From Cephalotus follicularis (lineage: Eukaryota; Streptophyta; Magnoliopsida; Oxalidales; Cephalotaceae): a stretch of 64,000 nucleotides of DNA. The notes under the pieces were generated by a model that ran no database searches, was not told the DNA's origin, and saw only the letters and a program-made list of their open reading frames with translations. The translations under genes and the position numbers were made by a program. Each line of letters starts with the position of its first letter. Positions within the stretch are counted from its first letter, which is position 1. This document shows, one piece after another, positions 1,716 to 46,850 of the stretch. The DNA is taken from NCBI GenBank assembly GCA_001972305.1, contig BDDD01002376.1, forward strand, positions 124,001 through 188,000, read 5' to 3'.

Positions 1716-3862
1716 TGTTAGATATAGTGACCCGATAAGCCATTAGATGGGTTGTCATATTATATCTTACCATGTATGGAACAATATTATTCTTATATAT
1801 ATGATGTGTGCTAAATTTGTTATGGCTATATCACTTGTATTTTATCACATAATTGAAGTAGTTTAATTATTACCTACTTATACTAGTGATGCCCTGACAT
1901 AAGGTTGGATGCCTGGCATGGAGGCTGTGAGACTGGTTACCTTACTCCTTATGTCAAACTTGTTCCAAGTCATCGGTTCACTTTGTGGGCATTAGTGAAC
2001 CGGATAGACTTGCACGTATATTGCCTGCTCATGGAATCGGGGGATTGATTCTCTCACTACCATCTGTGTTGGACACTAGGGAAAATACGGGGTACGCGCT
2101 GGGAGCGTGTACACTGAACTGGACCCGAGTAAGAGACACTATTTGGATAGTCGCTATTCTCGTGTCAGTAGTGACTCCTGCTTGTTGCGGTTGGGTATGA
2201 GTGATTATCACTTAGCGAGTTCTTTAACTCGTCTGATCCTTAGACCTGAGTGACTACTCTATATTGTATGGAGACGATTATGCTTTGATCTCCACCTTAC
2301 CCAGTCCTTACGCAGGGCTGGCAATTGGGTGGTCTTTGGGTATGATAGAATCTATACGAATATAAGTGAGTGCGCAATAAGGGATTATCACACCGGAGCG
2401 AAGGTGATCGGCCCTATTATGGTCTGATTATACTTTGGACTTATGAAATCCTTGGCCAAGGTTGAGGTAGACTGGAAATTAGATTTTTGGAGAGTTTACC
2501 AAAGGTCCTAGTAATGATCAGATATTTTAGCCATTGAGGTACTATCTAGGGTTGACACATATCCTTACCCTAGACCTCAATCGGGGCCAAGCATGACAAG
2601 GGATTATAGTACACGAGAACCGAAGACTTAGAAAATCTATGGTTATTGAGGTGTGAGAAAATTAATTTTTCCATCTGGATAATATTTGGATATTATTCCA
2701 ATAGCATTTAAATTGGTCGAGGACCATTTAGAATGGCTAAACCGAACCCTAGGGGTATTTCGGTTAATTGAGAACACCTCTCGTATTAACTAAGATTTTA
2801 AAGGGTCCCTGCCTTATAATGATTAGATCTTTAATATGTTAGACATATTAAGTCTTGGTGTCAAATATCGGTTGCGTGGATTTTACATTTTGTGGAAACA
2901 CATATGTTTGATCTTACTTAACCAATATTCGAAGGATACATGAAACCATTGAAAGAGTTAGACTCTTCATGCTTCACTGGCCAAAAGGCGTCGATGTCCT
3001 TTAGAAAGACGTCGATGCTTTTCTCTGATAAATACGTCGATGTCTTTTAGAAAGCATCGATGTGATTTAGTGCCACGTTGCATAGGCGTCGACGTCCTTT
3101 GGAAGGAGTCGACGTCTTTAAGCAGAACGTGCAACCTGTGCACGATCTCACTTCGTGGGCACTACTTCTCTTTGATCCTTAGCTGGGTTCTGTTGTTTTT
3201 ACACGTTATGGAAATGTGGGATTCATGGCTTCGGACTCCCAGGGAGTGAAGGCCATGATCCTAAGTGAATGGGAGATTGGGAGAGAGAAATTGAGGCTGG
3301 TATTAAGCATTTCTGCAGAAAATGGAAATAAAGAGTAGAGACATTTTTTTTTTGCTGGGCAATTGACCTCGAATTCTTCTCTACAAGTGTGTGTTCCTTC
3401 ATCTGATATACACCAAGCAAAGGCTTATCTAGGGTGGATTGATTGTTGACTTCATTGGTCAAAATCAATACACCTTTTCTAAGCTAAGTGAGAGAGTGTG
3501 TGAGTTCATATAGTTTTTTTTTGCTGGTTGGATTGCTTGCTGTTCCTGAGGCTTGGAGAGCATCAAGGGAATCTACTCAAGCTTGTAGCGGCAAAGAAAG
3601 AAGGAGCCTTCACCCACTGGTATAATCTTTCGTCTCTCTTCTTCTTGCCATGCTTGTGTGTCACCATTGTGTGCAATGGTGACACCAATTCAATTCTGTA
3701 GATGTTGTGGTGATCCATATGGTCTATGGACGTGCCATAATGGATTGGTTTATGTTTTATTGGGTGTTCTTCCGCTGCATGATTGTATGTTTAAATTTTA
3801 TTCTACACCCTTACACCCTTTGTCCATTTTTGGCACCGGACTCGGTATTTCCGATTCCATCA
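1716..3862 (+). repeat. 5' LTR of copia 1 (2147 bp)
   Basis: The LTR begins TGTTAGATA and ends TTCCATCA directly before the primer binding site. It is unusually long for a copia element. It shares its middle part with the copia 2 LTR at 21.3-23.5 kb, including the block beginning GATGCCCTGACATAAGG. A short hairpin with near-perfect 8-bp arms (AGTCGCTA/TAGTGACT, at about 2148-2175) is kept in the sister LTRs, in one of them as AGTCACTA. About 770 bp (near 2449-3214), including the palindrome array, are missing from the 3' LTR of the same element. Confidence 0.92.
2988..3115. repeat. GTCGAC-type palindrome array in copia 1 5' LTR
   Basis: Six short dyads of the form RCGTCGAYG occur with dyad centres at about 2992, 3013, 3038, 3058, 3090 and 3110. 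The intervals are 21, 25, 20, 32 and 20 bp. Spacer sequences differ between units, so this is not a simple minisatellite. The array is absent from the 3' LTR of the same element because of a deletion. Function is unknown. Confidence 0.8.
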
Positions 3863-3863
3863 G

Positions 3864-3875
3864 TGGTATCAGAGC
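3864..3875 (+). other. Primer binding site of copia 1
   Basis: TGGTATCAGAGC follows the LTR end by one base and is complementary to the 3' end of initiator tRNA-Met, the usual copia minus-strand primer. Confidence 0.93.
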
Positions 3876-4667
3876 GTCCCACATCATCCTTAATTGAATA
3901 TGTATGCCTTAGATGATGTACTGATTAATAGTTTAATCAATGAATGTGTTTTGGGATCAAACTAAATTTTCTAAGTGCCTTAAAGAAAATTGCTTGAAAT
4001 TGGATTTCATTGAGTTTTTATGCTGGGAATTTTGTTTTAAATGTGTTTAGAATTAAGTTTGGAACATGCATAGTGCATTTTGGAATGCCATAATGGTATT
4101 CCATAGTCTAAACCATTAAATTCAGCATTTTTCGAAATGCAGAAAATGCCCATGGGGCTAAAGACGTCGACGTCCTTGGTAGACGTCGATGTCATGTTCA
4201 AATTCCCAGTAAAGACATCGACGTTCGTGATAGACGTCGATGTCTTGTTCATACTTTTGTGAAACGCGTTGATGTTCTTGTTGGACGTCGACGCCTTTTT
4301 CCAACTGTTCTTGAGAAACGCATTGATGCTCTGGTTTTGCATCGACGCCTTGTTCATATTTTTCCAGAAAACACGTCGATGCTTTTGGAAAGGCGTCGAC
4401 GTCTTTTATAAAAAAAAAAATTGTTTTTGATAAAATTGGATTTTATACATTTTGGCACTTGGAAGGTTGAAAATCATTGCTTGATTTAGTGGGAGTTTGA
4501 TCAATTAACAATCATTGAATTAAATTGAGTAATTGGTTATTATTTATGGCATTTGTTTTATATGTGGTTTTATTATATTGGATATAATATAGATCTTATG
4601 CACAATGGATGGTCCGAAAAGGACTTTGACCTAATTTATGGTTTTCTTTGTGTGGATGGATTTATTT
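3876..4667 (+). other. Untranslated leader of copia 1
   Basis: This non-coding stretch lies between PBS and the gypsy insertion and is homologous to the copia 2 leader (23542-24141 and 26707 onward), for instance around TTTAGTGGGAGTTTGA. It contains a large palindrome array. It ends where the gypsy LTR was inserted, so the copia gag start that should follow is missing. Confidence 0.75.
4163..4402. repeat. GTCGAC-type palindrome array in copia 1 leader
   Basis: Ten dyads (ACGTCGACGT, ACGTCGATGT, GCATCGACGC and similar) have centres near 4168, 4187, 4219, 4238, 4270, 4289, 4324, 4343, 4377 and 4397. The intervals alternate between 19-20 and 32-35 bp, so the dyads come in pairs. A second array in the leader, separate from that in the LTR, is also found in copia 2. 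The position downstream of the PBS means it would be part of the genomic RNA 5' leader. Confidence 0.82.
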
Positions 4668-6634
4668 TGTAATACCCTCTTCGTTCGTAAATGTATTTTT
4701 ACGGATTTTAATATGTGTTTTCGGGCTTCTAATTTCGTTTAAATTTAAAGTCCGGTTGCCCTATGATCGGGTTTATGTGAATTGTGCGGAATGATACCGG
4801 TCCGATATTTGGGTATGTTATGCTATGTTGGGTTTTATAAATTCTTATTTTAATCCAAAACTTATTTTATTAAAAACAAATTATTATTCTTTTATTTTAA
4901 TATTCCTTAATTCTTTTTATTATTATTCTTTTGTCTTTAAAATCCATAATTCCTTTTTCTATTATTCCTTTAATTTCCTTTTTTTCTTATTTTAGCATTT
5001 TCCTCAACTTTCTTCCTACTTCCTTCCACCATCTCCTTCTTTCCAGCAAATCCCACGATCAAATGCCATGTTAGAATCTCTCTTTTTCTATATCTAAATC
5101 CAGAAAAGTTCCCTTCTTCCTTTTTTGTCAAATCTTGTCTCCCCCTTTCTTCATTATTGAGTGTCATTGCCAGTTTTATATGATGCCACCATCCTTATTG
5201 CAAACCACCCCGAATTTGCCTTGTTATTGTGCAATAATCTACTGTGTAAATCATTCTTCAAAGTCCAAGCGGTAATCTCAATCCTTTAGTTGTTTCCTTG
5301 GATTAAATTCTCTTAGTTTGATATGTATGTCTAAAAATACCATGGTTTTGTATTCTTCTTTCTTTGTTTCTGTTCACAGCAGATTGTGTGTTTGTGCTTG
5401 TGATCTTCCTACTGTTTTCTGGGTTCTCTAACATCATTAAAGGTCAGTTAAATCATCCCCTTTAATTATAGTTTTGTTTCAATGGCTTACTTTGAGTTTT
5501 TGTGCTCTTGGTATCTTGGAGTCTTGGATTCTTGCCCAAACATGTTGCTATTGTGTTAGTGATGTTATCTGCAAGTTTTATGCACCTATATATGTCACAA
5601 ACTGAGTTTATAACATCTGCAATCAATTAGAAACAAAATCTGGACATGTTCATGCAATGTCTTCTTGCTTCCTTTTTGCAAGTTAAATCATTGAAAGGTC
5701 GTTTCCTTGTCAAATTTGTGTTTGTAAATCACCTACAAGTCATATATAATCATATGTTTATGTCCATATGTCTCTAGTTTATTGTAGAAATCATTTGAAC
5801 CATTTTCAGTAGCAAATCGTCGAATTTCCAACTGTTCTGTTGCCCAGAACAGCCGACTATCTGAGTGGACAGTCGACTGTATGAACGAATCCCATGAGGT
5901 GGATTTGTGGATCCGCTATGTGATAGAGGCGTATGAATCGATTCTAGTTTATGTGATCTGAGGTGAATTCAGATATATGGTCCGAAGTGTGATCGGACAT
6001 GTGTATGTGAGAATTGACTTGTGTAGTGCCATACACTTCAATTCTAGTGGGCACGTGGAATTAGCACCTCCCTTGCCAAATTTTATGACATGTGATATGA
6101 ATATGGCTCAGTATGTTTTAAACAATTATGATTTCGATGTTTCGTAATTGTTTCGAAATTATGCAACTGTCATTTGAATATGATTAAACTATTTTATTTG
6201 TTAAATATTTATGTTACGTTATTATTGAAATGATAATGTTTTTAAATTACCGTTTACTGTTTTAATTAACTTATCCATACTGAAGTTTGCTCAGCCGAGT
6301 TTTTGTTTTCATGCGGTAGGCTTTCTGGAGCAGCGGGGGAAAATGTGATTGAGTGATGACTACCCTATGTGTTGGATCCTTAGGAGAGTGATCCTTATGT
6401 TATGTTTAGTGGTCGGAAACATGAATTTTTATGTTTTATGTTTTAAATTGGAACTGAACTATGTTTTGAGTTTTCCGCAACTACTTAATATGTTAAATGT
6501 TAAGTTTTTAATGTTTTGATAAGACTCCCACGGTTTTGGCTGTTTTTGGCTAATAAAGCGAATTTATGAGTTTGTTAAGTTATGATATGTATGATATGAC
6601 CCTGTGACGACTCCCGCCGTCTGGGGGTGTTACA
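4668..6634 (+). repeat. 5' LTR of nested gypsy (1967 bp)
   Basis: The LTR starts TGTAATACCC and ends GGGGGTGTTACA, six bases before a primer binding site. The reverse complement of its end matches the left end of the minus-strand solo LTR at 24142, so the two belong to related families. Two dyads of the palindrome family, AGCCGACT and CAGTCGACTG, lie at 5851-5880 with centres 20 bp apart. Confidence 0.88.
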
Positions 6635-6640
6635 GAAATT

Positions 6641-6652
6641 TGGTATCAGAGA
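6641..6652 (+). other. Primer binding site of nested gypsy
   Basis: TGGTATCAGAGA, one base off the initiator tRNA-Met complement, lies six bases after the LTR end. Confidence 0.85.
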
Positions 6653-6813
6653 GATAGGTTTTGTTTCCTTAGAAGTCCTAACTAGGTTTGACCTGTGAGA
6701 TTGGGTAGACACCGAGTTAGGCTGTTTCGGTTATGATTTTCTGATATGTTTTCTATTTTTTGCTTTCTATTTTTGTTCCTTGTGATGTTTTATGTTTGAG
6801 CGCCTTTTCGTAG

Positions 6814-7765
6814 ATGGCACGTATAAGGAACGCTGCTCGGAGGACTGCACCCGTTGAGGCTCAGGAAGCTAGAAATGAGCCTACTATGGAGGAGCTTGTA
6901 CGATAAGCAGTTGCTCAGGAGATACGACGCGTGTTGAATGAACAAAATCAGAATCAGGACCGTAGGGAGCCGGTTGCTGCTAATGATGCTCCAGCTGATG
7001 TCCAGTTGGGAAGAGATGCTGGGAACGGGACTGTTACGCCCACTTATGTTTGGCTAGAGCGGTTCCAAAAGCAGAGACCGCTGTCTTTCAGCTCAGCCGT
7101 GACTCCGGTGGAAGCTGGGCACTGGATTGCTAATATGGACAAGATCTTTGATGTGCTTGGTTGCAGTGATGAACAGAAGATTAAGTTAACTGTATACAAG
7201 CTTGAGGGTGATGCTCATAAATGGTGGAAAGCTGTGATTTTGGCTAAGGGTGGCAACTATGCGGAGACTTTGACCTGGTCTGAATTTTGCGAGGTCTTTT
7301 ATCAGCAGTATTTTCCCACCGCTGATAAGGAGGCTTACGCCAGAGAGTTTATCAATACCAGACAGAAGGATGGAGAGTCGGTGACAGAGTTCTTGACCCG
7401 ATTCACTAGGCTTGCTGGTTTTGCTGGGTCTGCTGCAGGAACAGCATTGGAACAGGCAGAAAAGTTCAAGTGGAAGTTGCACTATCAGTTTTGGGGAAAA
7501 TTGATCAATACCAGGTTTGCTGATGTATCTGAAGTGGCTAATGCGGCTAAGAACATTGAGCTGGAAAGGTTAGATTTCCAGGCTACTCGACAGGAGTTTG
7601 ACAGAAAGAGAAATAGAGGTGGTTCTTAGGGGCAAGGTTCTGGACAGAATAAGAATATGAATGGCAAGCGTGGGAAGAGAAATGATTACCGGGGACAGCA
7701 ACATTCCGGTAATGACCAAAGGTAGACACAGGGTGCTGCGGATGTCCAGATTTCCAAATGTGAAG
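6814..7765 (+). pseudogene. gag: gypsy gag, truncated, with two stops
   Basis: The capsid precursor gene starts with ATG at 6814 (MARIRNAARR). An in-frame TAA follows at 6904-6906, then a long clear stretch with the retrotransposon gag core: WLERFQKQRPLSF, WIANMDKIFDVLG, YKLEGDAHKWWKA, FYQQYFP and VTEFLTRFTRLA. A second stop (TAG, 7627-7629) precedes a Gly/Gln/Asn-rich basic tail that would lead to the zinc knuckle, but copia integrase replaces it. The gag resembles chromovirus Tekay/Del gag. It is non-functional as it stands. Confidence 0.9.
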
Positions 7766-10034
7766 AGATAACGGAATTCTATCTCAGTGGACTCCTCCTG
7801 GAACACCACAGCATAATGGTGTGTCCGAAAGGAGGAATCGGACTTTGTTAGACATGGTTCGATCGATGATGTCTTTTGCTAACCTTCCTACCTATCTCTG
7901 GGGTTATGCCGTAGATACACCTGCTTATATCTTGAATCAGATTCCTTCAAAATCTGTGCCTTCTACTCCATACCAGGTATGGTCAACGAGGAAACCCAGC
8001 CTGAACCATTTGAAGGTTTGGGGTTGTCCTGCTTATGTCAAAAGGCTTGACGCAGATAAGCTTGAAGCGCGGTCGGACCGCTGCAGGTTTGTGGGGTATC
8101 CTAAAGAGACAAAAGGATACTACTTCTATCACACTAGCGAACAAAAGATATTTGTTTCGTGAAATGCTGTGTTTCTAGAGAAGGAATACCTTCTTGAAGG
8201 AAACAGTGGGAGCAAGGTGGAACTCAAGGAGTTGCCACAGGTAGAAACCACACAAGAGATGGAGGAGTTGGAGGTTAGACCTTTAACAGACACAGCTGAG
8301 ATTGGATCTCAGGCTAAGAATGGTTCTCAGTTAGGCAAAGCTCCTTTGAGGAGATTAGGCAGAATCCCATTAGCACCTGAGAGGTATGGTTTCCTCATTG
8401 ATGGTATTGATGAGATAAACGTCGTGGAAGATAACGAGCCTGCCAAATACTTAGAGGCAGTGCAAAGCACTGAATCTGAAGCATGGCTAGGAGCCATGAA
8501 ATCCGAGATGGATTCCATGTACTCCAACCAAGTATGGAATTTGGTTGAAGCACCCGAAGGCATAGTGCCTATTGGCTGCAAATGGATCTTCAAGAAGAAG
8601 ATGAATGCAGATGGAAGAATCGAGACTTATAAAGCTCGATTAGTGACGAAAGGGTATAGACAACGACATGGAGTCAACTATACTGAGACTTTCTCACCTG
8701 TCACCATGCTTAAATCCATTAGGATTTTTCTTGCTATTGCCGCTCATTACGATTATGAGATATGGCAAATGGATGTCAAGACGGCATTCTTGAATGGTCG
8801 TCTTGAAGAGGATATTTATATGTCCCAACCCGGGTTTACATCTTCCGAGCACCCGCACATGGTGTGCAAGCTCGAACGGTCCATCTATGGATTAAAGCAA
8901 GCATCTCGTAGCTAGAATCTACGTTTTGATGAAGCAGTCAAGGCTTTTGACTTCGTTAAAAATGTAGATGAGCCATGTGTTTATCGAAAGCAAGAGGGTC
9001 CTAGTATCACTTTCTTAGTACTATATGTAGATGACATTCTACTCATTGGGAATGACGTAGGGATGTTGCAATCTGCAAAGATATGGCTAACTAAGAATTT
9101 TTCCATGAAAGATTTGGGAGAAGCCACCTATATACTGGGTATTAGGATCTTCAGGGATAGATCCAATAGGTTGCTTGGGATTTCCCAAAGCCAGTACATC
9201 AGCAAGGTGCTGAAGAGGTTTAGCATGGAGAATTCCAACAGAGGCCTATTGCCAATAGGTGAAGGAATTCATCTTTCTTGAAAGATGTCTCCTCAAACAT
9301 CAGAAGAGAGAGCACGCATGAGTCGGATACCTGATGCTTCGGCAGTAGGGTCGATCATGTATGCCATGTTATGTACTAGGCCTGATGTCGCACTTGCCCT
9401 GGGTATGGCAAGTCGTTTTCAGTCTGATCCCAGTGAGAAGCACTGGGAAGTGATCAAGGGAATCCTGAAGTACCTTAGAAGGACTCAGGATATGTTCTTG
9501 GTCTATGGAAAGGATAGTGAACTGAAATTGGAGGGCTTCACAGACTCCTGTTTTGATAGTGATCCGGATGATCACAAATCTGTCTCTGGGTACGTGTTTG
9601 TACTTAATGGTGGAGCTGTGAGCTGGCGCAGTTCTAAGCTAGGAACTATTACAGATTCTACCATAGAAGCTGAGTACATAGCAGCCTCAGACGCAGCCAA
9701 GGAGGGTGTTTGGATGCGCAAGTTCATTACTTAACTGGGAGTTGTTCCATCCATTATTAGTCCAGTTATGGTATACTGTGATGATAATGGGGCTGTAGCA
9801 CAAGCCAAGGAACCACGGTCTCATCAGCGATCCAAACACATCGAGCGGTGCTACCATTTGATCCGAGAGATTATTGGTAGGGGAGATATACAGCTTGAGA
9901 GGGTCTCCTCAGAGGAGAACATAGCAGATCCACTAACCAAGGCTATGGGCACCAAGGCTTTGGAGCGTCATCGTGGGACGATGGGTCTAGGCTATAGGAG
10001 TTCATGGCTTGAGGGTCAAGTGGGAGATTGTTAG
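7766..10034 (+). pseudogene. pol: copia 1 pol remnant: integrase C-terminus, RT, RNase H
   Basis: One reading frame carries the 3' half of copia pol, interrupted by stops at 8160-8162 (TGA), 8913-8915 (TAG), 9279-9281 (TGA) and 9732-9734 (TAA). It begins inside integrase near the catalytic Glu (GVSERRNRTLLDMV) and continues through the GKPSLNHLKVWGC-type region. The RT has WIFKKK, MDVKTAFLNG and the YVDDILL active site. The copia RNase H ends in KHIERCYHLIREI and ADPLTKAM. The terminal TAG at 10032-10034 lies inside the first bases of the 3' LTR. All four stops can be explained by single base changes. Confidence 0.93.
10017..10028 (+). other. Polypurine tract of copia 1
   Basis: CAAGTGGGAGAT lies directly before the 3' LTR start TGTTAGA. 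This is the normal place and composition of the plus-strand primer. Confidence 0.8.
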
Positions 10035-11398
10035 ATATAGTGACCCGACAAGCCATTAGATGGGTTGTCATATTATATCTTACCATGTATGGAACAATCT
10101 TATTCTTATATATATGATGTGTGCTAAATTTGTTATGGCTATATCACTTGTATTTTATCACATAATTGAAGTAGTTTAATTATTACCTACTTATACTAGT
10201 GATGCCCTGACATAAGGTTGGATGTCTGGCATGGAGGCTGTGAGACTGGTTACCTTACTCCTTATGTCAAACTTGTTCCAAGTCATAGGTTCACTTTGTG
10301 GGCATTAGTTAACCGGATAGACTTGCGCGTATGTTGCCTGCTCATGGAATCGGGGGATGGATTCTCTTACTACCATCTGTGTTGGACACTAGGGCAAATA
10401 CGGGGTGCGCGCTGGGAGCGTGTACACTGAACTGGACCCGCGTAAGAGACACTATTTGGATAGTCGCTATTCTCGTGTCAATAGTGACTCCTGCTTTTTG
10501 CGATTGTGTATAAGTGATTATCACTTGGCGAGTTCTTTAACTCGTCCGATCCTTAGACATGAGCGACTACTCTATATTGTATGGAGACGGTTATGCTTTG
10601 ATCTCCACCTTACCCAGTCCTTACGCAGGGCTGGCAATCGGGTGGTCTTAGGGTATGATCGAATCTATACGAATATAAGTGAGTGCGCAATAAGGGATTG
10701 TCACACCTGAGCGAAGGTGATCGGCCCTATTATGGTCTGATTATACTTTGGACTTATGGTGGGATTCATGGCTTCGGACTCCCAGGGAGTGAAGGCCATG
10801 ATCCTAAGTGAATGGGAGATTGGGAGAGAGAAATTGAGGCTGGTATTAAGCATTTCTGCAGAAAATGGAAATAAAGAGTAGAGACATTTGTTTTTTTGCT
10901 GGGCAATTGACCTTGAATTCTTCTCTGCAAGTGTGTGTTCCTTCATCTGATATACACCAAGCAAAGGCTTATGTAGGGTGGATTGATTGTTGACTTCATT
11001 GGTCAAAATCAATACACCTTTTCTAAGCTAAGTGAGAGAGAGTGTGAGTTCATATACTTTTTTTTTGCTGGTTGGATTGCTTGTTGTTCCTGAGGCTTGG
11101 AGAGCATCAAGGGAATCTACTCAAGCTTGTAGCGGCAAAGAAAGAAGGAGCCTTCACCCACTGGTATAATCTTTGGTCTCTCTTCTTCTTGCCATGCTTG
11201 TGTGTCACCATTGTGTGCAATGGTGACACCAATTCAATTCTGTAGATGTTGTGGTGATCCATGTGGTCTGTGGACGTGCCATAATGGATTGGTTTATGTT
11301 TTATTGGGTGTTCTTCCGCTGCATGATTGTATGTTCAAATTTTATTCTACACCCTTTGTCCATTTTTGGCACCGGACTCGGTATTTCTGATTCCATCA
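10029..11398 (+). repeat. 3' LTR of copia 1, internally deleted (1370 bp)
   Basis: The sequence matches the 5' LTR at both ends but jumps from the equivalent of about 2448 to about 3214 at 10757-10760 (TTATG then GTGGGATTC). The homologous copia 2 LTR has the missing block, so this is a deletion here rather than an insertion in the 5' LTR. The palindrome array is part of the lost block. A short ATG lies on both sides of the breakpoint. Confidence 0.9.
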
Positions 11399-11403
11399 AT
11401 CCA
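11399..11403. repeat. Target site duplication of copia 1, right copy
   Basis: ATCCA follows the 3' LTR and matches 1711-1715. Confidence 0.95.
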
Positions 11404-11988: not shown

Positions 11989-12180
11989 AGCGTCGACTGC
12001 TTTGTCCAAAGCGTCGATGGTTAGCGCCTAAGCGTTGACGCCTTTGTGCTAGGCGTCGACGGTTAAAGCGTTGTATCTTAAGCGTCGACGCATGCACTAA
12101 GCACCAGCCATTTTGTAACACATAAAGCATCGACGGTTCGCGCGATCAAATCGTTGACGCCTATAGCAAAGCGTCGATGG
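11989..12180. repeat. GTCGAC-type palindrome array in gypsy A LTR
   Basis: Dyads GCGTCGACTG, GCGTCGATGG, GCGTTGACGC, GCGTCGACGG, GCGTCGACGC, GCATCGACGG, CGTTGACGC and GCGTCGATGG have centres near 11994, 12015, 12036, 12057, 12086, 12131, 12155 and 12175. The first three intervals are exactly 21 bp. Variants differ mostly at CpG positions (CG to TG or CA). Confidence 0.83.
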
Positions 12181-13443: not shown

Positions 13444-13555
13444 TGACGCATAGACATCGATGCCTAGAGCTAGACATGCATTTTCATACGTGTCAATCGA
13501 AAGAGAACTTGACGCGTAAATGTTGATGCCAAGTGAGGACGTCGATGCCATGAAC
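13444..13555. repeat. Palindrome motifs, proximal group, gypsy B LTR 1
   Basis: Degenerate dyads of the GCGTCGACGC family (ACATCGATGC, ACTTGACGCG, TGTTGATGCC, ACGTCGATGC) lie close to the LTR start. LTR 2 has the equivalent group at about 18921-19050. Spacing is less regular than in the distal group. Confidence 0.6.
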
Positions 13556-14370
13556 CCAGAAAATAGTTCAGATACGTGTCTGTTGCAAGTGAAGGAATGG
13601 CATGAGTGTCCTGAAACTTGGATAGGTGTGATGTTCGTGTTAAGGGCAAGGAGGATGTGCCAAACCCTGTAGAATCCAACCTGTATGTGCTAACTGCCAA
13701 CTGAAGAGGAAGCTTGGTATCCTAAGCCTGCAACCTGCAACTGAGCAGAAACAAACAGTGAGTTAATGGAGTTAGAGAGAGAAGAGAAAATGTTAGGAAC
13801 CTGAGTTAGAGAATTAAACGAATCTCTGAAGGATTCCTTTATATCAGATGTTAGAGAAGCTGAATTGGGTTAGGAACCTTACTAAGAAAAGGGTTCAGCT
13901 ACTGGTTGAGTGTACATATTGAATTGGAGCTCAAGGTTGGAAAAATAGAAGCTGGAATTATTGGTAAGCTTCTGTTTTGGAATTACATTATTGTTATAGT
14001 TATTCAGTAGCACATACATACTGATTTCAGTATGTATACCTACAATTAACGTGAAAATATAGATTGGTTCTAGAGTTGTAAAGTGGAGTTGAATTGAAGG
14101 AGTATTGGAACTTAGAGAGAAGAACCAACCAATTGGTTCTGGGATAAGCGATTGAGGTAGGGTTTATGACATGTATATGAAGATATAGCATGTATATTGT
14201 GTATGGTAGCTTATATGTGCTTGCATGTTGATGTTAAGCTAGAATCAATGCTTGCTTGGCTTGATTATGGACTGTATATCCTATTGCGTTTGATTTTCGT
14301 TCACACCAATAGATACACATTAATGCCTTACTGAGATAGTCGATAGTTTACCTGTTGGCATTTGATTCTT

Positions 14371-14583
14371 GTTGATGCCAATGAAGGATAACATTGACGT
14401 TTAAAGTTACGATCTTCGAAAACGTCGAAGCCAATAGGTAATGTTGACGCGTAAGGTCCTACCTTAACGCGTCGATGCTAAAGAGAAATGTTAATGCTAA
14501 AGGTTCCTACCTTGACGCGTTGACGTCTAAGTGAAACGTTGACGCCTATATACAAGTCGACGCCTAAAATACACGTTGACGCC
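14371..14583. repeat. GTCGAC-type palindrome array, gypsy B LTR 1
   Basis: About ten decayed dyads have centres near 14373, 14395, 14426, 14445, 14473, 14492, 14521, 14540, 14558 and 14577. The intervals are 22, 31, 19, 28, 19, 29, 19, 18 and 19. Most cores show CG to TG or CA changes (for example GTTGACGC). Confidence 0.75.
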
Positions 14584-16407: not shown

Positions 16408-16722
16408 AATTTGTCCAAGTTCAAATCTCTCTGTTTTTAACCGGCGCCATGAGGGCTCTAGGCGTTGATGGTTACCTTCAAAGCGTCACCGCTTTAAGTG
16501 AAACCATCGGCGCTTTAGACATCTTCATCAATTCTTAACCTTTGAAATCGACGCTTTCAACATGACACACATCCAAAACAAATAACCAATTTCGATTTTC
16601 TTCCGACCCCGAACCCCCCGAGCGGTAGGGTCATATTACGGGACCCTTGAAATATTTGTCAATTTCAACAATGGTAACCATATTTCCATATAACTTTAAC
16701 AAAATTTTCCGATCATTATAGG
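16408..16722. repeat. Unassigned LTR-like fragment with palindrome motifs
   Basis: About 315 bp joins the truncated copia LTR to gypsy B pol. It has four dyads of the palindrome family (GCGTTGATGG, GCGTCACCGC, CCATCGGCGC, ATCGACGC) with centres near 16466, 16486, 16508 and 16549. The intervals are 20, 22 and 41 bp. It probably comes from yet another LTR. I cannot name the family. Confidence 0.5.
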
Positions 16723-18690
16723 GATGATGCTCGTGATGTAAGTTTCCAAGAGTTGAAGAGTCGGTTGATTGTGTTAGCATTACCTGAGGATAATGAGGAT
16801 TTTACTGTTTTTAGTGATGCTTCTGGGAAAAGCTTGGGATGTGTTCTCATGCAACGTGGTCATGTAATTGCATACGCATTGAGGAAGCTGAAACCGTACG
16901 AGGAGAATTATCCCGTACATGATCTTGAATTGGCGGCCATAGTGTTCGCTTTGCCAAAATGGAGACATTATCTCTATGGCGCCCAGTTTGAGATTTTTAC
17001 TGACCACAAGAGCTTGAAGTATTTGTTTTCTCAGAAGGAGCTAAACATGAGACACAGAAGGTGGGTTGAGTTCTTTAATGATTACAACTGCGACATTCAA
17101 TACCACTCAGGGAAAGCTAATGTAGTTGCTGATGCACTGAGTCGTAAAGCAATGACTGCTGGTGCAATGGTTTCACAGTGAAAGCTATTGGAGGATTTTC
17201 AGAGATGGAATTCATTCATTGTTTCCATAGGGGTTACTGTGGCTAATCTTAGAGCGCAACCGGAACTTCTTGATCGAATTCTGAATGCTCAGTTTAGTGA
17301 TACTGAATTGTGGAATATTCGTGAGAATTTAGATTCTGACTCTGAATTCTCCATACATGCTGATGGCATATTGAGGTTCCAAGGGAGGGTATGTGTTCTG
17401 GATGATGAGAGCATAGAATGAGATATTGCAGCAAGCTCATAAATCATGGTACAGTGTTCATCCAGGAAGCTCTAAGATGTGGCATGATATGAAAAGGAAC
17501 TATTGGTGGAGTGGTATGATGAGGGAGATTACTGAATATGTAGCAAGATGTTTGACCTTTTAGAGAGTGAAGGTTGAACATCAGAAACCTGCGGGATTGC
17601 TACAATCATTACCAGTGGTCGAATGGAAGTGGGAGCATGTGACCATGGATTTTGTATTAGGATTACCGAGGTCACAGAATCGACATGAAGTAGTATGGGT
17701 TGTTGTGGATAGACTCACCAAGTCTGCTCACTTTCTTCCGATGAACATGACATATTCTATCGAGAAGTTGGCTCGATTGTATATTCAGGAGATTGTAAGA
17801 TTGCATGGCATGCCGGTCAGCATTGTTTGTGACCGTGATGCAAGGTTTACTTCAAGGTTCTGGAAGAAGTTCCAAGCAGTGATGGGAATCACCTTGAACT
17901 TCAGTACTGCATTTCACCCACAGACTGATGGACAGTCCGAGCGTACCATTCAAACTCTAGAGGATATGCTCCGGGCTTGTGTTATTGATTTCGCTGGAAG
18001 TTGGGAGGATCATCTTTCACTGATTGAATCCTCCTACAATAATAGTTATCATTCTAGCATCGGGATGGCTCCTTATGAAGCCTTGTACGGAAGGAAGTGT
18101 AGATCTCCTATATGCTGAGATGAAGTGGGTGAAATACAAGTGCTGGGACCAAATCTTGTGCAAGAGACTACTGCCAAGGTCGAGATAATCAAGAAAAAGT
18201 TGCTAGCTGCACAGAGTCGGCAAAAGACTTATGCCGATAGAAGGAGAAGGAAGCTAGAGTTTGAGAAGGGAGATCATGTTTTTCTGAGGATCTCACCTTC
18301 GAAGGGAATGTACCGATTTGGCCTAAAAGGGAAATTAGCTTTGAGGTATATCGGACCTTATGAGATACTGGAGAGAGTTGGGGAAGTGGCATATTAGATA
18401 GCACTACCACCCAACTTATCGAATGTGCATAACATATTTCATGCATCCATGCTACTGAAATATGTACCTGATTCAACTCATGTGTTGAGATATGATTCGG
18501 GGTTTATCAGTGATAATCTATCTTATGAAGAAAGGCCAATGAGGGTTATTGACCGAAAGGAGAAAGTTCTGTGGAATAAGACTATTCCTATGATAAAGGT
18601 ACTGTGGCAGTTTCACGGAACTGAGTAAGCGACATGGGAACATGAAGCTGAAATGATGGAAATATTCCCTCATTTGTTCGGAATGTAAAG
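16723..18690 (+). pseudogene. pol: gypsy B pol remnant: RNase H, integrase, chromodomain-like tail
   Basis: The remnant begins at the RT/RNase H connection ([12 protein letters not shown]). RNase H follows ([33 protein letters not shown]). A stop at 17179-17181 and a frameshift near 17413 come before the integrase zinc finger. That finger keeps both His, but its second Cys has become Phe and the next codon is TAG. The catalytic core is readable, with Asp in TMDFV, Asp in CDRDARF and Glu in [15 protein letters not shown]. Further stops lie near 18118, 18397 and 18628. The end reads ATWEHEAEMM, typical of chromovirus tails. Confidence 0.92.
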
Positions 18691-18715
18691 GCTAAATTCA
18701 AGGAGGAATTTTGTA

Positions 18716-19050: not shown

Positions 19051-19810
19051 CCCAGAAAAGAGTTCAGATACATGTCTGTTGCAAGTGAAGGAATGGCATG
19101 AGTGTCCTACAACTTGGACAGGTGTGATGTTCGTGTTAAGGGCAAGGAGGACGTGTGAAACCCTGCAGAATCCAACCTGCATGTGACGCCAGCTGCCAAC
19201 TGAAGGGGAAGCTTGGTGTCCTAAGCCTGCAATTAAGCAGAAACAAACAGTGAGTTAATGGAGTTAGAGAGAGAAGAGAAAATGTTAGGAACCTGAGTTA
19301 CAGAATTAAACGAATCTCTGAAGGATTCCTTTATATCAGATGTTAGAGAAGCTGAATTTAGTTAGAAACCTTACTAAGAAGAGGGTTCAGCTACTGATTG
19401 AGTGTGCATATTGAATTGGAGCTCAAGGTTGGAAAAATAGAAGCTGGAATTGTTGGTAAGCTTCTGTTTTGGAATTCCATTATTGTTATAGTTATTCAGT
19501 AGCACATACATACTGATTTCGTTATGTATACCTACTGTTAATGTGCAAATATAGATTTGTTCTAGAGTTGTAAAGTGGAGTTGAATTGAAGGAGTATTGA
19601 AACTTAGAGAGAAGAACCAACCAATTGGTTCTGGGATAAGCGATTGAGGTGGGGTTTATGACATGTATATGAAGGTATAGCATGTATATTGTGTATGGTA
19701 GCTTATCTGTGATTGCATGTTGATGTTAAGCTGGAATCAATGCTTGCTTGGCTTGATTATGGACTATATATCCTGTTGCGTTTGATTTTTGTTCATGCCA
19801 ATAGATACAC

Positions 19811-20075
19811 GTTAACGCCTTACTGAGATAGTCGATAGTTTACATGTTTACGTTTGATTCTCGTCGATGCCAATGAAGGATAACGTTGACGTTTAAAGTT
19901 ACTATCTTCAAAAATGTCGACGCCAATAGGTAACGTTGACGAGTAAGGTCCTACCTTAACACATCGACGCTAAAGCGAAATGTTAAAGATTAAGGTTCCT
20001 GCCTTGACGCGTTGACGTCTAAGTGAAACATTGACGCCTATATACACGTCGACGCCTAAGATACACGTTGACGCC
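19811..20075. repeat. GTCGAC-type palindrome array, gypsy B LTR 2
   Basis: Thirteen dyads can be marked between 19813 and 20069. Intervals are mainly 18-22 and 28-32 bp. The last three (20032, 20050, 20069) are ACATTGACGCC, ACGTCGACGCC and ACGTTGACGCC. The phase matches LTR 1. Confidence 0.75.
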
Positions 20076-21254: not shown

Positions 21255-23528
21255 ATTGGTCAGTTTTTGTATCGAACCTATCTGTGTATATAATAGTCTT
21301 TTTCCTGATATATGACATGTGCTAATTTTTTTATATTATTTATGGCAATATCACTTGTGTTTTATCACATAATTGAAGTAGTTTAATATTTCCATACTTG
21401 CACTTGTGATGCCCTGACTTAAGGTTGAATGCCAAGTATAGAGGCAGTGAGATTGGTTACCTTTTCCCTTATGTCGAATTAGTTCCAAGTCATAGGTTCA
21501 CTTTGTGCGCATTAATGAATAGGATAGACTTGTTCTTATGTTGCCTGCTTTTGGAATTTGAGTATGGATTCTCTCACTACCATCTATGTTGCGACACTAG
21601 GGCAAATACGGGGTGCGCGCTGGGAGCGAGTACACTGAACTGGACCCGCTTAGGAGACACTATTTGGATAGTCGCTATTCTCATGTCAATAGTGACTACT
21701 ACTTGTTGTGGTTGTGTATAAGTGCTAGTCACTTAGCGAGTTTTTGAACTCATCTGATCCTCAGACCTGAGCGACTGCTCTATTTGTTTATGGAGACGGT
21801 TATGCTTTAATCTCCACCTTACCTAGTTCTTGCGTAGGGCTAACAATCGGGTGGTCTTTGGGTATGATCAAATCTATACGAATATAAGCGAGTGCGCAAT
21901 ATGGGATTGTCACACCTGAGCGAAGGTGATCGGCCCTATTATGGTCTGATTGTACTTTGGACTTATGAAATCCTTGGCCAAGGTTAAGGTTGACTAGAAA
22001 TTAGACTTCCGGAGAGTCTACCAAAGGTCCTAGCAATGATTAGATATTTTAGGCATTGAGGTATTATCTAGGGTTGACACATATTCTTATCCTAGACCTC
22101 AATCGGGGCCAAGTATGACAAGAGATTATAGTACACGCGAACCGATAACTTAGAAAGTCTCACGTTACGGCAGTGTGTAATAAATTATGAGAAAATTAAT
22201 TAGATTAATTTTTCATATGGATGATATTGGATATTAGTCCGGGAGCATTTAAATAGGTCTTGGACTATTTAGAATGGATTAACTGAACCCTACGGGTATT
22301 TCTTTAATTTATTAACACCACTGATTCTAACCGAGATTTTAAAGAATCCCTATCCGATAATGATTTCTTCATAAATATGTTGAAGATATTTAAGTCTTGG
22401 TGAAATTTATAAAATCAAATATCGGTTGGGTGGATCTTATAATTTGTGGAGACACATTTATTTGATCTTACTTAATCAATATTCGGAGGGGATATGTAGC
22501 ATCACTTGAATGGGTAGGACCTATTTATATGATGTAGTGGTTAACTTCTTGGAGAAGTAAACATGTGTCGTACAAAGAATGGATTAGACTCATTATTGAC
22601 ATGTGAATATGTCAACCTGGTTTAAGCGTCGACGCTTTTGGAGAAAGAGTCAACTCTAAACCATGCTTAAGCGTCAACGCCTCTTGAAGAAAGTGTTAAC
22701 GCTAAACTATGTCAAAGCGTCGATGCCTTTGTAGAAAGCGTTGACGCTTAGTGCACAACGTGGGTGCCCTAATTGGACACAAAACGTGCGCAAGTTTTCT
22801 CTCTCCCATTCCCAGCACTTTTCTCCCATCTGAGCACGATCGGGAGCACGTTTTGGATCATGGTTTCATGATTTCTTAGAGGAAGCAGCATGATCACATG
22901 ATGGGGAGTGGATGCGACATGTGAGAGAGTGAGAAAACAGGCTGGCATAAAACCAGAGGAAACAAACATTGCAAAGGATGGGTCTTTTGGCAGAGTTTTG
23001 TTGGGTAAGTCAGAGGTCGAAAGAGCCATTTACACTAAGCAATCCCTTCCTGATTTCTTCACTAAGCTAGGAGCTAACCTAGGGTGGATTGCTATTGATA
23101 ATCATTGTCAGTTTCAATCTTCTCTTTGTGAGATTTGTGAGAGAGAGAGAGCAAAAACAGAGACACTATTTTCTTGCTTGCATAACGTACCCGTTGCTTG
23201 GAGCTGTAGTAGTTCGGCTTGGAGAACACATAGGGAGTCTACTCAAGAAAGTAGAGGCAAAGAATGAAGGAGCCTTCACCATACAGTATAGACTCCTTGT
23301 CTCCCTCTATGTTGCCATGTTGTGTATCACTTTTGCATGTATGAGTGATACCAATTCAATTATGCCTATGATGTGGTGATCCTTGTGACCTACATTCCCT
23401 GAATTGGACTTGTTCCTTGGTGTTTAGAGGATATGCTTCCGCTGTTTTATAAACCAGAAAATTTTTGTTTGGTCCTTTAAGCACCTTAGTCTGGATACAC
23501 CTCTAGGGGATGGATACCATTCCCAACA
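21255..23528 (+). repeat. 5' LTR of copia 2 (about 2.27 kb)
   Basis: It shares the GATGCCCTGACATAAGG block, the AAATCCTTGGCCAAGGT block and the GAAGGAGCCTTCACC end region with copia 1, but differs enough to be a separate subfamily. It ends TTCCCAACA before the PBS. The first 60 to 80 bases are diverged or partly lost. Confidence 0.82.
22624..22748. repeat. GTCGAC-type palindrome array in copia 2 LTR
   Basis: Six dyads (GCGTCGACGC, GAGTCAACTC, GCGTCAACGC, GTGTTAACGC, GCGTCGATGC, GCGTTGACGC) have centres at about 22630, 22651, 22675, 22697, 22721 and 22742. The intervals are 21, 24, 22, 24 and 21. The second unit has both flanks changed together (GCG..CGC to GAG..CTC), which keeps its symmetry. 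Confidence 0.85.
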
Positions 23529-23805: not shown

Positions 23806-24087
23806 TATCGACGAACAGCAAGTTCGTCAACGCTTTTGGTCAAAGCGTCGATGCTTGTCCAAGTGACTTGTATTTTAGCGCTAAAGTTTGTGGTAAGCGT
23901 TGACGCTTTGTGGAAAACTGTCGACTCTTAGGCACTAAGCATCAATGGTTTTGTTCAAAACGTCGATGCTATAGGTTTAAGCATTGACGCTTTTAGTAGG
24001 CGTCGACTATTACCTCAACGCTGAAAGAAGTATTGAGCGTTGACAGTTTGTGGCAAACTGTCAACGCTTAGGCATTAAGCGTCGACA
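23806..24087. repeat. GTCGAC-type palindrome array in copia 2 leader
   Basis: Thirteen dyads have centres near 23809, 23828, 23849, 23901, 23922, 23943, 23964, 23985, 24004, 24016, 24041, 24062 and 24083. The intervals are 19, 21, 52, 21, 21, 21, 21, 19, 12, 25, 21 and 21. Seven are exactly 21 bp and one is 52, near five helical turns. Cores include GCGTCGATGC, GCGTTGACGC, CTGTCGACTC and GCGTCGACAC. Spacers differ. Confidence 0.87.
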
Positions 24088-24136
24088 CCTAAAACAAGAA
24101 ATTATACTATTGCTAAAATTTGGAATTTTTTGCATT

Positions 24137-25565: not shown

Positions 25566-25696
25566 AGCGTCGACAATTTATACTTAGGCGTCGACGGTTT
25601 CTCTGTATAAAAGGACAAAGCGTCGAGCAAAGAGTCGACTGACCAAAGCACAAAACGGTACAAAGCAGCGACGCTCAAGGAATAAGCGTCGACGGT
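25566..25696. repeat. GTCGAC-type palindromes in solo LTR, group 1
   Basis: GCGTCGACAA, GCGTCGACGG, GCGTCGAGC, GAGTCGACTG, GCAGCGACGC and GCGTCGACGG. Centres include 25571, 25592, 25624, 25636 and 25690. The intervals include 21 and 32 bp. Confidence 0.75.
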
Positions 25697-26446: not shown

Positions 26447-26576
26447 GCGTCGACTGTTTACTTAAAGCGTCGATGGTTAAACACTTAAATACAAAACGCG
26501 TCGATGTCACACGTTTTGGCGTCAACGTGTCACTCAGCACCCAAAGCGTCGGCAGTTCTAATGAGAGCGTCGGCGC
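26447..26576. repeat. GTCGAC-type palindromes in solo LTR, group 2
   Basis: GCGTCGACTG, GCGTCGATGG, GCGTCGATGT, GCGTCAACGT, GCGTCGGCAG and GCGTCGGCGC have centres near 26451, 26471, 26502, 26523, 26550 and 26571. The intervals are 20, 31, 21, 27 and 21 bp. Confidence 0.78.
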
Positions 26577-32549: not shown

Positions 32550-32647
32550 CCGTCGACGCTTAGGAAAGAAGCGTCGACGCTATAGATTGTTATACGGAGA
32601 ATGAGTACTGCTTCGAGATAAACGTCGACGCTTAGAGATAACGTCGA
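32550..32647. repeat. GCGTCGACGC palindromes in gypsy C LTR A
   Basis: Four nearly perfect cores (CGTCGACGCT, GCGTCGACGC, CGTCGACGCT, CGTCGACGCT) have centres near 32554, 32575, 32626 and 32645. The intervals are 21, 51 and 19 bp. These are the least decayed copies in the window. Confidence 0.85.
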
Positions 32648-32721
32648 CGCTATGATTCGTTGTGTGTTAGAATGGGTTATAGCTTTGTTTTGCTGCTGTT
32701 TTTCTGCACTGTCTGCAGAAT

Positions 32722-33010
32722 CCAGCCGACTGCTCGAGTGCGCCAGTCGACTATTCGGTATGAACAGCCGACTACTCAATGGATCCAGTCGACTGTGCTT
32801 GGGAGCCAGTCGACTGTCCATGTGTGTTACTGAGAAATGCCTGCAGAGGCTTGAGTAGCCGACTGCTGTAGGCCAGCGGCCGACTGTTGGGTATAAACAG
32901 CCGACTGTCAAGGATGACAGCCGACTGTCGAGTGTGGACAGTCGACTACCAGTTTAGGACAGCCGACTGTTGAAGGAAAACAACCGACCGTCAGTGAGGG
33001 ACAGCTGATT
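32722..33010. repeat. CAGTCGACTG array with 21-bp phase in gypsy C LTR A
   Basis: Thirteen dyads of the form CAGYCGACTG have centres near 32727, 32748, 32769, 32790, 32811, 32860, 32881, 32902, 32922, 32943, 32964, 32985 and 33006. The intervals are 21, 21, 21, 21, 49, 21, 21, 20, 21, 21, 21 and 21 bp. The 10-bp core is conserved while the roughly 11-bp spacers are not. The core is CAG..CTG here, not GCG..CGC as in the neighbouring group, so the flanks have changed symmetrically. The array is missing from LTR B. Confidence 0.93.
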
Positions 33011-33182
33011 GTTTGTGTCTGTCTTGCATTGTGGGCATGTGCATGCATCTTGAATTGTGATTGTGAACTGTTGTATCATTCTTTTTGAAGTGCATTCATG
33101 ATCATTATAAATCATTATTTTACACGAAAATGTATGTTCAAGCAAATATATATTTTCAAAGGACTGTGAAAATGGCTTCCAA

Positions 33183-34357: not shown

Positions 34358-34870
34358 ATGGATGGAAGGAGAAAACGCGGAAGGCCTTGAGCCGCTGATG
34401 GAAGTGTTCCTGAGGAAGTGAATGACATAACGGACCGTATAGCGGATTACTTCCAGCAGCAGATGGCTGCCAATGCTGCAAACATGGAGGATGTGTGTCG
34501 ATTGTACGCACAAGCATAACCACAGCACATGGTTCCAAACCATGTTGCGCGGCATGATGGAAACCATTTTGGAAGAGCTTGATATGAACGCAGATACCTA
34601 GAGTGATGACGTCGACGCCTAAGGGATGGTGTTGACGCCAATAGCCCTGTTTTGGTGAAACTACCCAGTTTTCCATGGATCTTGATTCTGATTGAGATCA
34701 GGCTAATGTTTAAGCCTCTGAAATAGCGCCTAAGGCTGCTGAGCAGTTTAGACTTTCCCGGAAGGCTGACCTCGAGACGGCAGACCTCCCGAAATCCTGC
34801 GGGATATATCGAATGAAGTGACAATGAGGGCTTTGAAGTCCGAAATGGTTAAGTGACCAACCGAATAAGT
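34358..34870 (+). pseudogene. gag: gypsy C gag start, decayed
   Basis: From the ATG at 34358 the frame reads MDGRRKRGRP, stop, then VNDITDRIADYFQQQMAANAA and EDVCRLYAQA, with further stops. This resembles the N-terminus of a gypsy gag (basic head, then a helical region). No capsid core or zinc knuckle follows. Two palindromes of the GCGTCGACGC type (centres 34613 and 34633) lie inside it. The identification rests on position and style, not on a clear domain. Confidence 0.5.
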
Positions 34871-37957: not shown

Positions 37958-38084
37958 ACATCATGAATTGAGTTTTGTGAACATCGTGAATTGAGTTTTG
38001 CGAACATCGTGAACTGAGTTTTGCAAACATCGTGAATTGAGTTTTGTAACATCGTGAACCGAGAGCCGTGACATCGTGAAAATG
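37958..38084 (+). repeat. 23-bp tandem repeat in gypsy C LTR B
   Basis: Six units of the same ACATCGTGAACTGAGTTTTG type as in LTR A, which has five. Confidence 0.85.
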
Positions 38085-42440: not shown

Positions 42441-42442
42441 AA

Positions 42443-42454
42443 TGGTATCAAAGC
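42443..42454 (+). other. Primer binding site of copia 3, first copy
   Basis: TGGTATCAAAGC has one mismatch to the initiator tRNA-Met complement (A for G). Confidence 0.85.
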
Positions 42455-42735
42455 CAATTTTGATCACACTTTGATATATTTTTGTGTTGTAATGAATGTA
42501 TGAGTAATGAGTGTCATTGATGTAAAAATTTCTTGTTTTGAAGTGGAGTAAAGAAAAGTTGAAGTGTTATTTTCATCTTTGTCTTCTCATCTTTACTTTT
42601 ATTTTGGTATGTCAGTGTTGATCAAAGTGATCGAGGCATTAGGTTTTGTTTATAATAAATCCATTCCGTTTTAGGGTTTGCTAGTTTGGGTTAGATTAAC
42701 TGTTAATCTAGCCACTTTTTAATGAAACCAACAAA

Positions 42736-42747
42736 TGGTATCAGAGC
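42736..42747 (+). other. Primer binding site of copia 3, second copy
   Basis: TGGTATCAGAGC is a perfect match, 293 bases downstream of the first copy, produced by the tandem duplication. Confidence 0.85.
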
Positions 42748-42836
42748 CAATTTTGATCACACTTTGATATATTTTTGTGTTGTGATGAATGTATGAGTAA
42801 TGAGTGTGTCATTGATGTAAAAATTTCTTGTTTTGA

Positions 42837-46159: not shown

Positions 46160-46350
46160 TGTAACGCCCCAACCATCCCCCTTATCGCTTTAGCATTTAT
46201 TGCATCTTTTCGTCATGGTATCCAGATATATTGAATAATTATTGTGCATATGGATATTGATGGAGTGGAGTATTTCCCATACTTATATGGATTGATTGTA
46301 TGTTTGTTTATTGTATTGATAGTGCATTGGGGTAGAGTTAGTGAGAAACC

Positions 46351-46358
46351 TATAAATA
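46351..46358 (+). promoter_or_regulatory. Putative TATA box of solo LTR
   Basis: TATAAATAG lies about 190 bases into the LTR and is followed by a TCTCTCC-rich stretch, as in active plant LTR promoters. Confidence 0.65.
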
Positions 46359-46600
46359 GAAGTCTAAACTCTATTTCATTTAATTTTCTCTTCTCTCTCC
46401 TCTCTCTACCCAAAATCACCCAAAACACCCATATTGACTATTTGACACGAAAAATTGAAGGGGAAGAGTTATAGATTGATCAGAGACTTGATTGACACAA
46501 AATTGGATCTCCACAAACCAAGATCTAGGATGGAAATGATTTGAAGAAAAGAGTTGAATTTGCAAAGTTTTTGGCAAGAACCCTAGTTTCTGTTGTGCCA

Positions 46601-46850
46601 AGCGTCAACGCCCACGTTCAAAGCGTCATCGTTTAGCCTTCTTTCATAAAGGAAATCGTTTTCAAACTGATGGCGCTTTGCTTCTTTGGGAGTGCTTAGC
46701 CTAAGCGGCGACGCTTAGTCCTTAAACGTCGCTGCTTAGTCCAGCTTTCCAAACTTTCTTTCAGCTTTGTACCAAAGCACTAACGCTCACAACTTAACTG
46801 ACGACGCTTTAGCGCAAAGCGTCGTCATTTAAGACCAAGACGTCGCTGCT
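46601..46850. repeat. GCGTCGACGC-type array, diverged, in solo LTR
   Basis: Units such as GCGTCAACGC, GCGTCATCG, GCGGCGACGC, ACGTCGCTGC, GCGTCGTCAT and ACGTCGCTGC have centres near 46606, 46627, 46709, 46730, 46823 and 46844. Three pairs are 21 bp apart. Many units have GTCGNC or GTCGCT instead of the strict palindrome, so symmetry is weaker than elsewhere. Confidence 0.7.

Follow-up and report, generated by a model that had tools for sequence, protein, structure and literature searches.

The nearest precedent for the arrays described here is the repeated motif (RM) box of Sireviruses. According to excerpts from Bousios et al. 2010 (PMC2829016), these boxes are palindromic, number 8-32 per element, and form clusters in the long terminal repeat (LTR) upstream of the TATA box, with some also in the non-coding internal region. 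The same excerpts describe the boxes as restricted to Sireviruses and, with one exception, as having a CGG-CCG core (which Sirevirus Tnd-1 lacks), and give the junction at the primer site as CA/ATTGG before TATCAGAGC. For VANC, the anti-silencing protein of the Arabidopsis VANDAL transposons, passages of a second article (PMC5735166) record that one VANC also affects an unrelated repeat. We examined a 64,000-nucleotide stretch of Cephalotus follicularis DNA (assembly GCA_001972305.1, contig BDDD01002376.1, positions 124,001 to 188,000 of the forward strand), referred to below as the window, which contains nested LTR retrotransposons and MULE-type sequence (MuDR transposase domain). Two classes of short palindromic sites, here called dyads (RCGTCGACGY and CAGTCGACTG), occur in huge numbers, in the LTRs and leaders of Ty1/copia elements and in repeats that flank Ty3/gypsy coding sequence. 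Their palindromy is constrained, and neighbouring dyads lie preferentially 19-22 bp apart, a second class of spacings falling near 27-31 bp. Judging from sequence, we tentatively read the arrays as cis-regulatory clusters of palindromic sites for a putative sequence-specific dimeric DNA-binding protein, most likely host-made, and give this reading nearly an even chance. The original prediction for the window had described such arrays, with helical phasing over several turns and unrelated spacers. Dyad arrays were found where it placed them, in excess over shuffled sequence, but the multi-turn phasing, the unrelatedness of the spacers and some of the element labels were not sustained.

Class A dyads have a consensus of approximately WAAGCGTCGACGCTTW, plus CpG transitions, while class B dyads read CAGTCGACTG or the variant CAGCCGACTG. 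GTCGAC occurs at 33 places in the window, all of them within positions 1-38000, where 3.64 are expected; this 9.1-fold excess is the highest observed/expected ratio among the 64 palindromic 6-mers of that interval. The window has 136 degenerate dyads, whereas 100 Markov shuffles averaged 40.3 and never exceeded 57. Exact words were counted in the 1.577-Gb assembly, with the reversed word as control. The count found GCGTCGACGC at 73,186 places (reversed word, 121) and CAGTCGACTG at 197,377 places (reversed word, 939), together more than 270,000 exact sites and an excess of 200- to 600-fold. The comparison is conservative, because the reversed words have one CpG fewer and are therefore expected to be commoner in CpG-poor DNA. 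Exact B-type pairs within 10-40 bp were found at 48,687 places in the genome, compared with 166 for the control. In IMG/VR, pairs of GCGTCGACGC were found in two viral contigs, whose inspected ~300-350 bases each are GC-rich and contain no array of this kind, and pairs of CAGTCGACTG had no exact match; AAGCGTCGACGCTTN{2,8}AAGCGTCGACG had no exact match in prokaryote genomes.

The arrays and smaller groups of dyads in the window are the following.

2989..3114, plus strand: six A-type dyads in the 5' LTR of Ty1/copia element 1 (copia 1), as three pairs (21, 20 and 20 bp)
4165..4401, plus strand: ten A-type dyads in the copia 1 leader, as five pairs at 19-20 bp
5850..5879, plus strand: pair of B-type dyads in the nested element, at 20 bp
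11991..12179, no strand assigned: eight A-type dyads in the region labelled 'gypsy A'
13455..13547, plus strand: minor group of three dyads in the left copy of the gypsy B flanking repeat
14370..14581, plus strand: array in the same left repeat copy, a decayed relative of 19862-20073
19810..20073, plus strand: ten A-type dyads in the right repeat copy flanking gypsy B
22627..22746, plus strand: six units in the copia 2 LTR, as three tandem 45-46-bp repeats with two dyads each at 21-22 bp (Tandem Repeats Finder, TRF, period 46)
23806..24087, plus strand: twelve dyads in the copia 2 leader, including a perfect hairpin at 24036-24068
25568..25694, minus strand: four dyads in a reversed solo LTR (24143 to ~26703)
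26448..26575, minus strand: six dyads in the same reversed solo LTR
32551..32649, plus strand: four A-type dyads, all exact, in the element C 5' LTR at intervals of 21, 51 and 19 bp
32724..33010, plus strand: B-type array in the element C 5' LTR, with 13 dyads that match CAGTCGACTG/CAGCCGACTG exactly or in degenerate form
34610..34637, plus strand: two dyads 20 bp apart in the element C leader
46603..46850, no strand assigned: diverged hairpin units in the solo LTR from 46160, e.g. TGACGACGCTTT-agcgc-AAAGCGTCGTCA

The layout is similar in copia 1, copia 2 and element C: one array lies in the LTR, upstream of a TATA-like word, and the leader holds another group of dyads. The TATA-like words of copia 1 and copia 2 are weak and lie ~190-200 bp downstream of the LTR arrays (~190 bp in copia 1, where the word is TATTAAG at 3301). 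In element C, TATAAAT (33106) lies ~96 bp downstream of the B-type array, in which ten of twelve intervals are 21 bp. Such placement, upstream of a presumed promoter and also within the leader, would fit an enhancer or anti-silencing function. The solo LTR at 46160, which had been counted among the dyad arrays, proved to hold diverged units (CGGCGACG, CGTCGCTG, GACGACGC, GCGTCGTC) and no exact dyads.

The sample from outside the window consists of twenty 10-kb stretches of contig C1 (genome G000) around exact A-type matches, one of them trimmed for overlap (196 kb in all), and yielded 56 clusters of at least three dyads. The addition of 20 short B-type stretches, loci L027 and L030, and window positions 1-38000 gave 89 clusters, of which 55 arrays remained after removal of those with more than six 14-mers in common; the window array at 32724-33010 does not figure among them, apparently owing to overlap of its flank with the array at 32551. 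With 700-bp flanks, nested elements became linked in a single group; 250-bp flanks, used instead, place 54 arrays in 29 groups, a rough number.

Neighbour intervals measure 18-22 bp in 46 of 69 cases in ten hand-listed window arrays, and in 134 of 252 cases in the 55 arrays, where a further 22 measure 28-31 bp and only six measure 9-17 bp (one of them 13-17 bp). Exact B-type pairs 10-40 bp apart, 69 of them distinct among the matches listed (all on contig C1), divide into 57 at 19-22 bp and 12 at 27-28 bp, with none elsewhere; once similar spacers are collapsed, 24 and 8 are left, 32 in total. Several of the pairs at 27-28 bp on contig C1 (e.g. 184236-184272, 1101114-1101151 and 1429353-1429389) contain a common inner word resembling ATGCGTGTTGTG, or a similar one on the other strand, which is possibly a second site. 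The original prediction had placed the intervals near two, three, four and five helical turns. The step of 19-22 bp holds, but three, four and five turns do not: the window intervals longer than 22 bp (n = 23) show no agreement with multiples of 10.5 bp (R 0.18, p 0.47), and an array-level score for placement on one face of the helix, with the far intervals randomised, gives p 0.64 in the window and p 0.37 in the 55 arrays. For the 111 intervals of 23-80 bp in the 55 arrays, a period of 10.5 bp yields p 0.039, but the phase is displaced by -1.35 bp and a period of 11 bp scores better (p 0.016). Phasing over more than two helical turns was rejected; only the 19-22-bp step fits two turns.

The symmetry of the dyads, a part of the original prediction, was supported. 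The outer bases of 307 dyads are C..G in 161 cases and A..T in 89, a total of 250 symmetric dyads, whereas mixed half-sites (C..T or A..G) occur in 14 where 118 are expected; other combinations make up 43. Palindromic 10-mers surround GTCGAC in 79 of 166 places at the C1 loci (44.7 expected) and in 10 of 33 in the window (6.7 expected), and base preference extends 4 bp either side of the 8-bp dyad core. Within A-type dyads of the 55 arrays, transitions at the outer CpGs affect the inner base (44+32) more often than the outer base (18+21), and the outermost C and G look most constrained.

A putative dimer with a footprint of ~16 bp would account for the symmetric outer bases, the lower spacing limit, the two-turn preference, the conservation of CpG and the sharing of sites by unrelated elements. 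The lower edge of the spacings fits such a footprint, which shows itself as a base preference reaching 4 bp beyond the core on each side. Two dimers, separated by two turns, would occupy the same face of the helix and bind cooperatively; arrays near the promoter and in the leader may raise transcription or shield the element from silencing, and unrelated elements would have sites in common by using the same factor. Hairpin complementarity would be secondary, neighbouring palindromes being mutually complementary, such that template switching by reverse transcriptase or DNA polymerase could copy one arm onto another. Presumably GTCGAC-type sites are bound by some AP2/CBF proteins, but no factor can be named from these, and the literature on GTCGAC-binding factors gave no usable lead. 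In a wider form of the proposal, one putative host or element-encoded dimeric protein would read CGTCGACG or AGTCGACT sites two turns apart, and Ty1/copia and Ty3/gypsy elements of one plant lineage would independently have acquired these sites and amplified them to more than 270,000 exact copies, forming a genome-wide regulatory network of transposable elements (TEs). This we regard as conceivable but rather doubtful. Should a single factor read the same palindromic arrays across unrelated retrotransposons, one gene could control whether much of a large plant genome is active or silenced, and the arrays would form a natural series for testing the effect of spacing on cooperative binding.

Several observations weigh against binding sites for a dimer. 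Spacings of the second class (~27-31 bp) do not correspond to an integral number of helical turns, and the outside loci all come from one contig and are not a random sample of the genome. The lower divergence of dyads speaks for binding sites: dyad CpG sites differ between homologous arrays in 221 of 1479 cases (15%), compared with 147 of 383 (38%) for other CpGs, and dyad T/A sites in 99 of 736, compared with 1817 of 8493 other sites. These counts, however, come from 53 array pairs of 70-94% identity that share arrays and are not independent, and the dyads were found by similarity, which favours conserved ones. Changes in the two halves of an A-type dyad do not mirror each other (601 paired, 617 by permutation, z -2.8), for which a score threshold that limits the changes per dyad may be the cause. 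Some arrays are partly tandem duplications, so that part of their regular spacing is inherited, and among exactly 21-bp units all within-array spacer pairs (59) average 0.41 identity, against 0.31 between arrays. Finally, the inward spacer arms of window dyads 18-22 bp apart pair at 122 of 230 positions where 98.6 are expected (z 4.8; none of 20,000 within-array permutations reached this), a covariation that counts against protein sites because independent binding sites would not need such pairing.

That pairing is the starting point of the main rival, in which neighbouring dyads are the two sides of a ~24-38-nt RNA stem-loop, and rows of such hairpins, within the leader and close to the transcript 3' end, would serve RNA dimerisation, packaging, stability or small-RNA cutting. 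We consider it unlikely, yet not to be set aside lightly. Self-complementary RNA was also an option of the original prediction, and it found its support in window arrays, with little outside. Within the window, inward-arm pairing is significant both in copia (p 0.0003) and in gypsy and solo LTR arrays (p 0.0008) and is absent for far intervals (p 0.60) and between the arms of one dyad (p 0.90). RNA folding gives a hairpin at each pair of the copia 1 leader (4165..4401, z -7.1), and likewise low energies for the copia 2 leader (z -7.2) and the minus strand of 46590-46860 (z -6.0); at locus L014 a copia-like LTR stretch has three hairpin-type pairs in line with copia 1 and 2. Pairing is kept in three of seven double changes at dyad T/A positions, two of the three being in the solo LTR at 46160. 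However, the outward arms lean the same way in copia (p 0.026; p 0.13 in all arrays), and the B-type array of element C folds weakly (z -2.6) and has 24 A-C mismatches to 7 G-U on its sense strand. The same strand test gives G-U to A-C ratios of 36 to 19 in copia, 67 to 59 in all window pairs and 149 to 164 in outside loci of unassigned orientation, with no consistent RNA signal. In independent loci the within-cluster arm test is null (p 0.27, 99 intervals); across clusters the arms do pair (z 3.9), but this reflects family-level symmetry, because the arms of single dyads are also significant (z 7.0). A better powered permutation test shows a weak excess outside the window (z 2.4-2.9), with per-cluster Wilcoxon p values of 0.15, 0.04 and 0.23; by dyad type, p is 0.096 for A and 0.038 for B, and in 24 distinct spacers between exact CAGTCGACTG words it is 0.56. 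No compensation was seen between dyad cores across a pair (p 0.08 in one test, z 0.05 in another), and spacings of 13-17 bp, which hairpins would tolerate, are nearly absent. Spacer-shuffled fold energies (mean z -2.2 for ten window arrays, -2.5 for 45 others) were set aside, since the shuffle also destroys the extended palindrome arms. Hairpins as a general explanation were thus favoured on the window arm pairing and then weakened by the outside-window and core tests; they are a feature of some arrays, clearest in copia, and not a general rule. The strongest fold outlier among 847 plus-strand segments of 150 nt in the window lies elsewhere, at 41851-42000 (z -7.7), where no dyad is listed.

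The regular spacing could also be a mutational by-product, in which tandem duplication spreads a minisatellite-like unit (21 or 45-51 bp) through LTRs while template switching between inverted copies keeps the palindromes perfect, with no selection; this we hold to be improbable. The original prediction had set plain tandem duplication apart from its own account and stated that the spacers share no sequence. For several arrays they do: spacer identity in window arrays is 0.47 within and 0.35 between arrays (reached in none of 5000 label permutations), it rises to 0.72 and 0.77 in two copia LTR arrays, and TRF periods of 19, 21, 42 and 46 were found in several arrays. Homology along the whole unit length holds for the copia 2 LTR and parts of other arrays. 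The copia 2 leader contains a duplicated stretch of ~60 bp (within 23890-23968 and 24030-24108) whose second copy is a perfect hairpin, and the differences between the copies look like one arm copied onto the other, as template switching would do; homogenisation of inverted-repeat arms by this route is described in the consulted parts of PMC8604942. Adjacent spacers of exactly 21-bp units, on the other hand, are nearly unrelated (0.33 against 0.31 between arrays, 12 pairs; ~0.25 mid-spacer) while their dyads are at 0.83 identity, and dyads and spacing seem to outlast spacer sequence after an old duplication. Against a pure by-product stand also the recurrence of the same words and spacing in unrelated elements, the lower divergence of dyad CpGs, and the genome-wide excess of both tested words. 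A last alternative, drawn by analogy with VANC, would make the arrays sites for a putative TE-encoded trans-acting protein, possibly anti-silencing, that other families exploit. In general type the arrays of this genome resemble VANC targets, but VANC21 motifs lie in the same orientation and the letters 'palindrom' are absent from the main text as consulted (PMC5735166), and we think this quite improbable. Binding sites for a host-made dimer continue to be the reading that we tentatively prefer.

The elements that carry the arrays, and one further element, were placed as follows.

1716..11398, plus strand: Ty1/copia element 1, with a nested insertion inside (self-BLAST, ends and target-site duplication, Pfam)
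16678..18394, plus strand: coding part of Ty3/gypsy B, with RT_RNaseH, rve and SH3_Tf2-1 (Pfam)
53925-59134: second gag/reverse transcriptase/integrase element

Copia 1 has its 5' LTR at 1716-3862 and its 3' LTR at 10029-11398 (self-BLAST), the target-site duplication ATCCA at 1711-1715 and 11399-11403, a primer site of tRNA-Met type after 3862, and the polymerase domain RVT_2 at 8163-8912 (Pfam). Its 120 best polymerase matches in a protein search, where named, are nearly all from flowering plants; records named Escherichia coli (C5P26_25665) and Weizmannia coagulans also match and are probably contamination, and no relatives were found in IMG/VR. Copia 2 starts at ~21285, and its LTR (21308-22489) is 83% identical to copia 1 LTR 1797-2935 (self-BLAST). 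The supposed 'copia 3' at 28536-31366 is probably not a separate element but the coding part of copia 2, because 29685-31725 matches the copia 1 polymerase at 87% (self-BLAST). The two repeats that flank gypsy B are 92% identical (self-BLAST), hold an array each and are likely the LTRs of this element. That copia and gypsy contexts share the arrays, as first proposed, thus stands on copia 1 and copia 2 and on these repeats; relatives of the gypsy B integrase also occur in the same 10-kb stretches as arrays at the outside loci L018 (67-88%) and L019 (76%). Both flanking repeats run on into copia-LTR-like sequence (15775-16405 and 21285-21923), an unexplained common junction. Element C has LTRs from ~31750 and ~37030. 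The labels 'gypsy C' for this element and 'gypsy A' lack domain support, no coding domain being recognised in the scanned frames (four of eight listed for the former, one for the latter). The 3' LTR of copia 1 is without the array-holding stretch of the 5' LTR (2446-3215), and that of element C is without its array stretch (32540-33042), the gap running from 11 bp before the first dyad to ~32 bp past the last; both gypsy B repeats retain their arrays. Direct duplications elsewhere in the window are at 42249-42838 (~295 bp, adjacent) and 62384-63168 (312 bp).

The Su(Hw) site cluster of Drosophila gypsy is located in the leader of that element. With 12 clustered sites, bound by a host protein, inside a retrotransposon, this insulator resembles the arrays here, but in the parts of PMC2374998 seen its site is non-palindromic, the element is an animal one and a single family is concerned. 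The VANC targets differ in that VANDAL elements are DNA transposons, the VANC21 motif is YAGTATTAY and the binding protein is known (PMC5735166, in part). Palindromic LTR clusters with strong predicted hairpins in maize, from a 2016 study as cited in passages of PMC10760457, are like the arrays here, although the maize motif CACCGGACNNNGTCCGGTG differs. A literature search of partial coverage, with few subscription papers, found no description of such arrays in gypsy elements.

The likeness to Sirevirus RM boxes, as far as the excerpts of PMC2829016 describe them, extends to at least eight palindromic motif copies per element and to LTR clusters: in copia 1 the 5' LTR has 6 and the leader 10, and in element C the 5' LTR has 4 + 13. 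In the same excerpts a Vitis box, CGGTCGACCG, has the GTCGAC core of the arrays here. The words of this genome, GCGTCGACGC and CAGTCGACTG, are nonetheless without the CGG-CCG core, and the primer junction of copia 1 is CA|GTGG-TATCAGAGC, with copia 2 reading AACAGTGGTATCAGAGCC, unlike that of Sireviruses. Should the arrays work as RNA hairpins instead, a feature reported to be confined to Sireviruses would still be extended to a Ty3/gypsy context. Unlike the RM boxes, they also flank Ty3/gypsy coding sequence and show a 19-22-bp spacing rule, and it is this sharing across superfamilies, together with the spacing rule, that appears new relative to known work.

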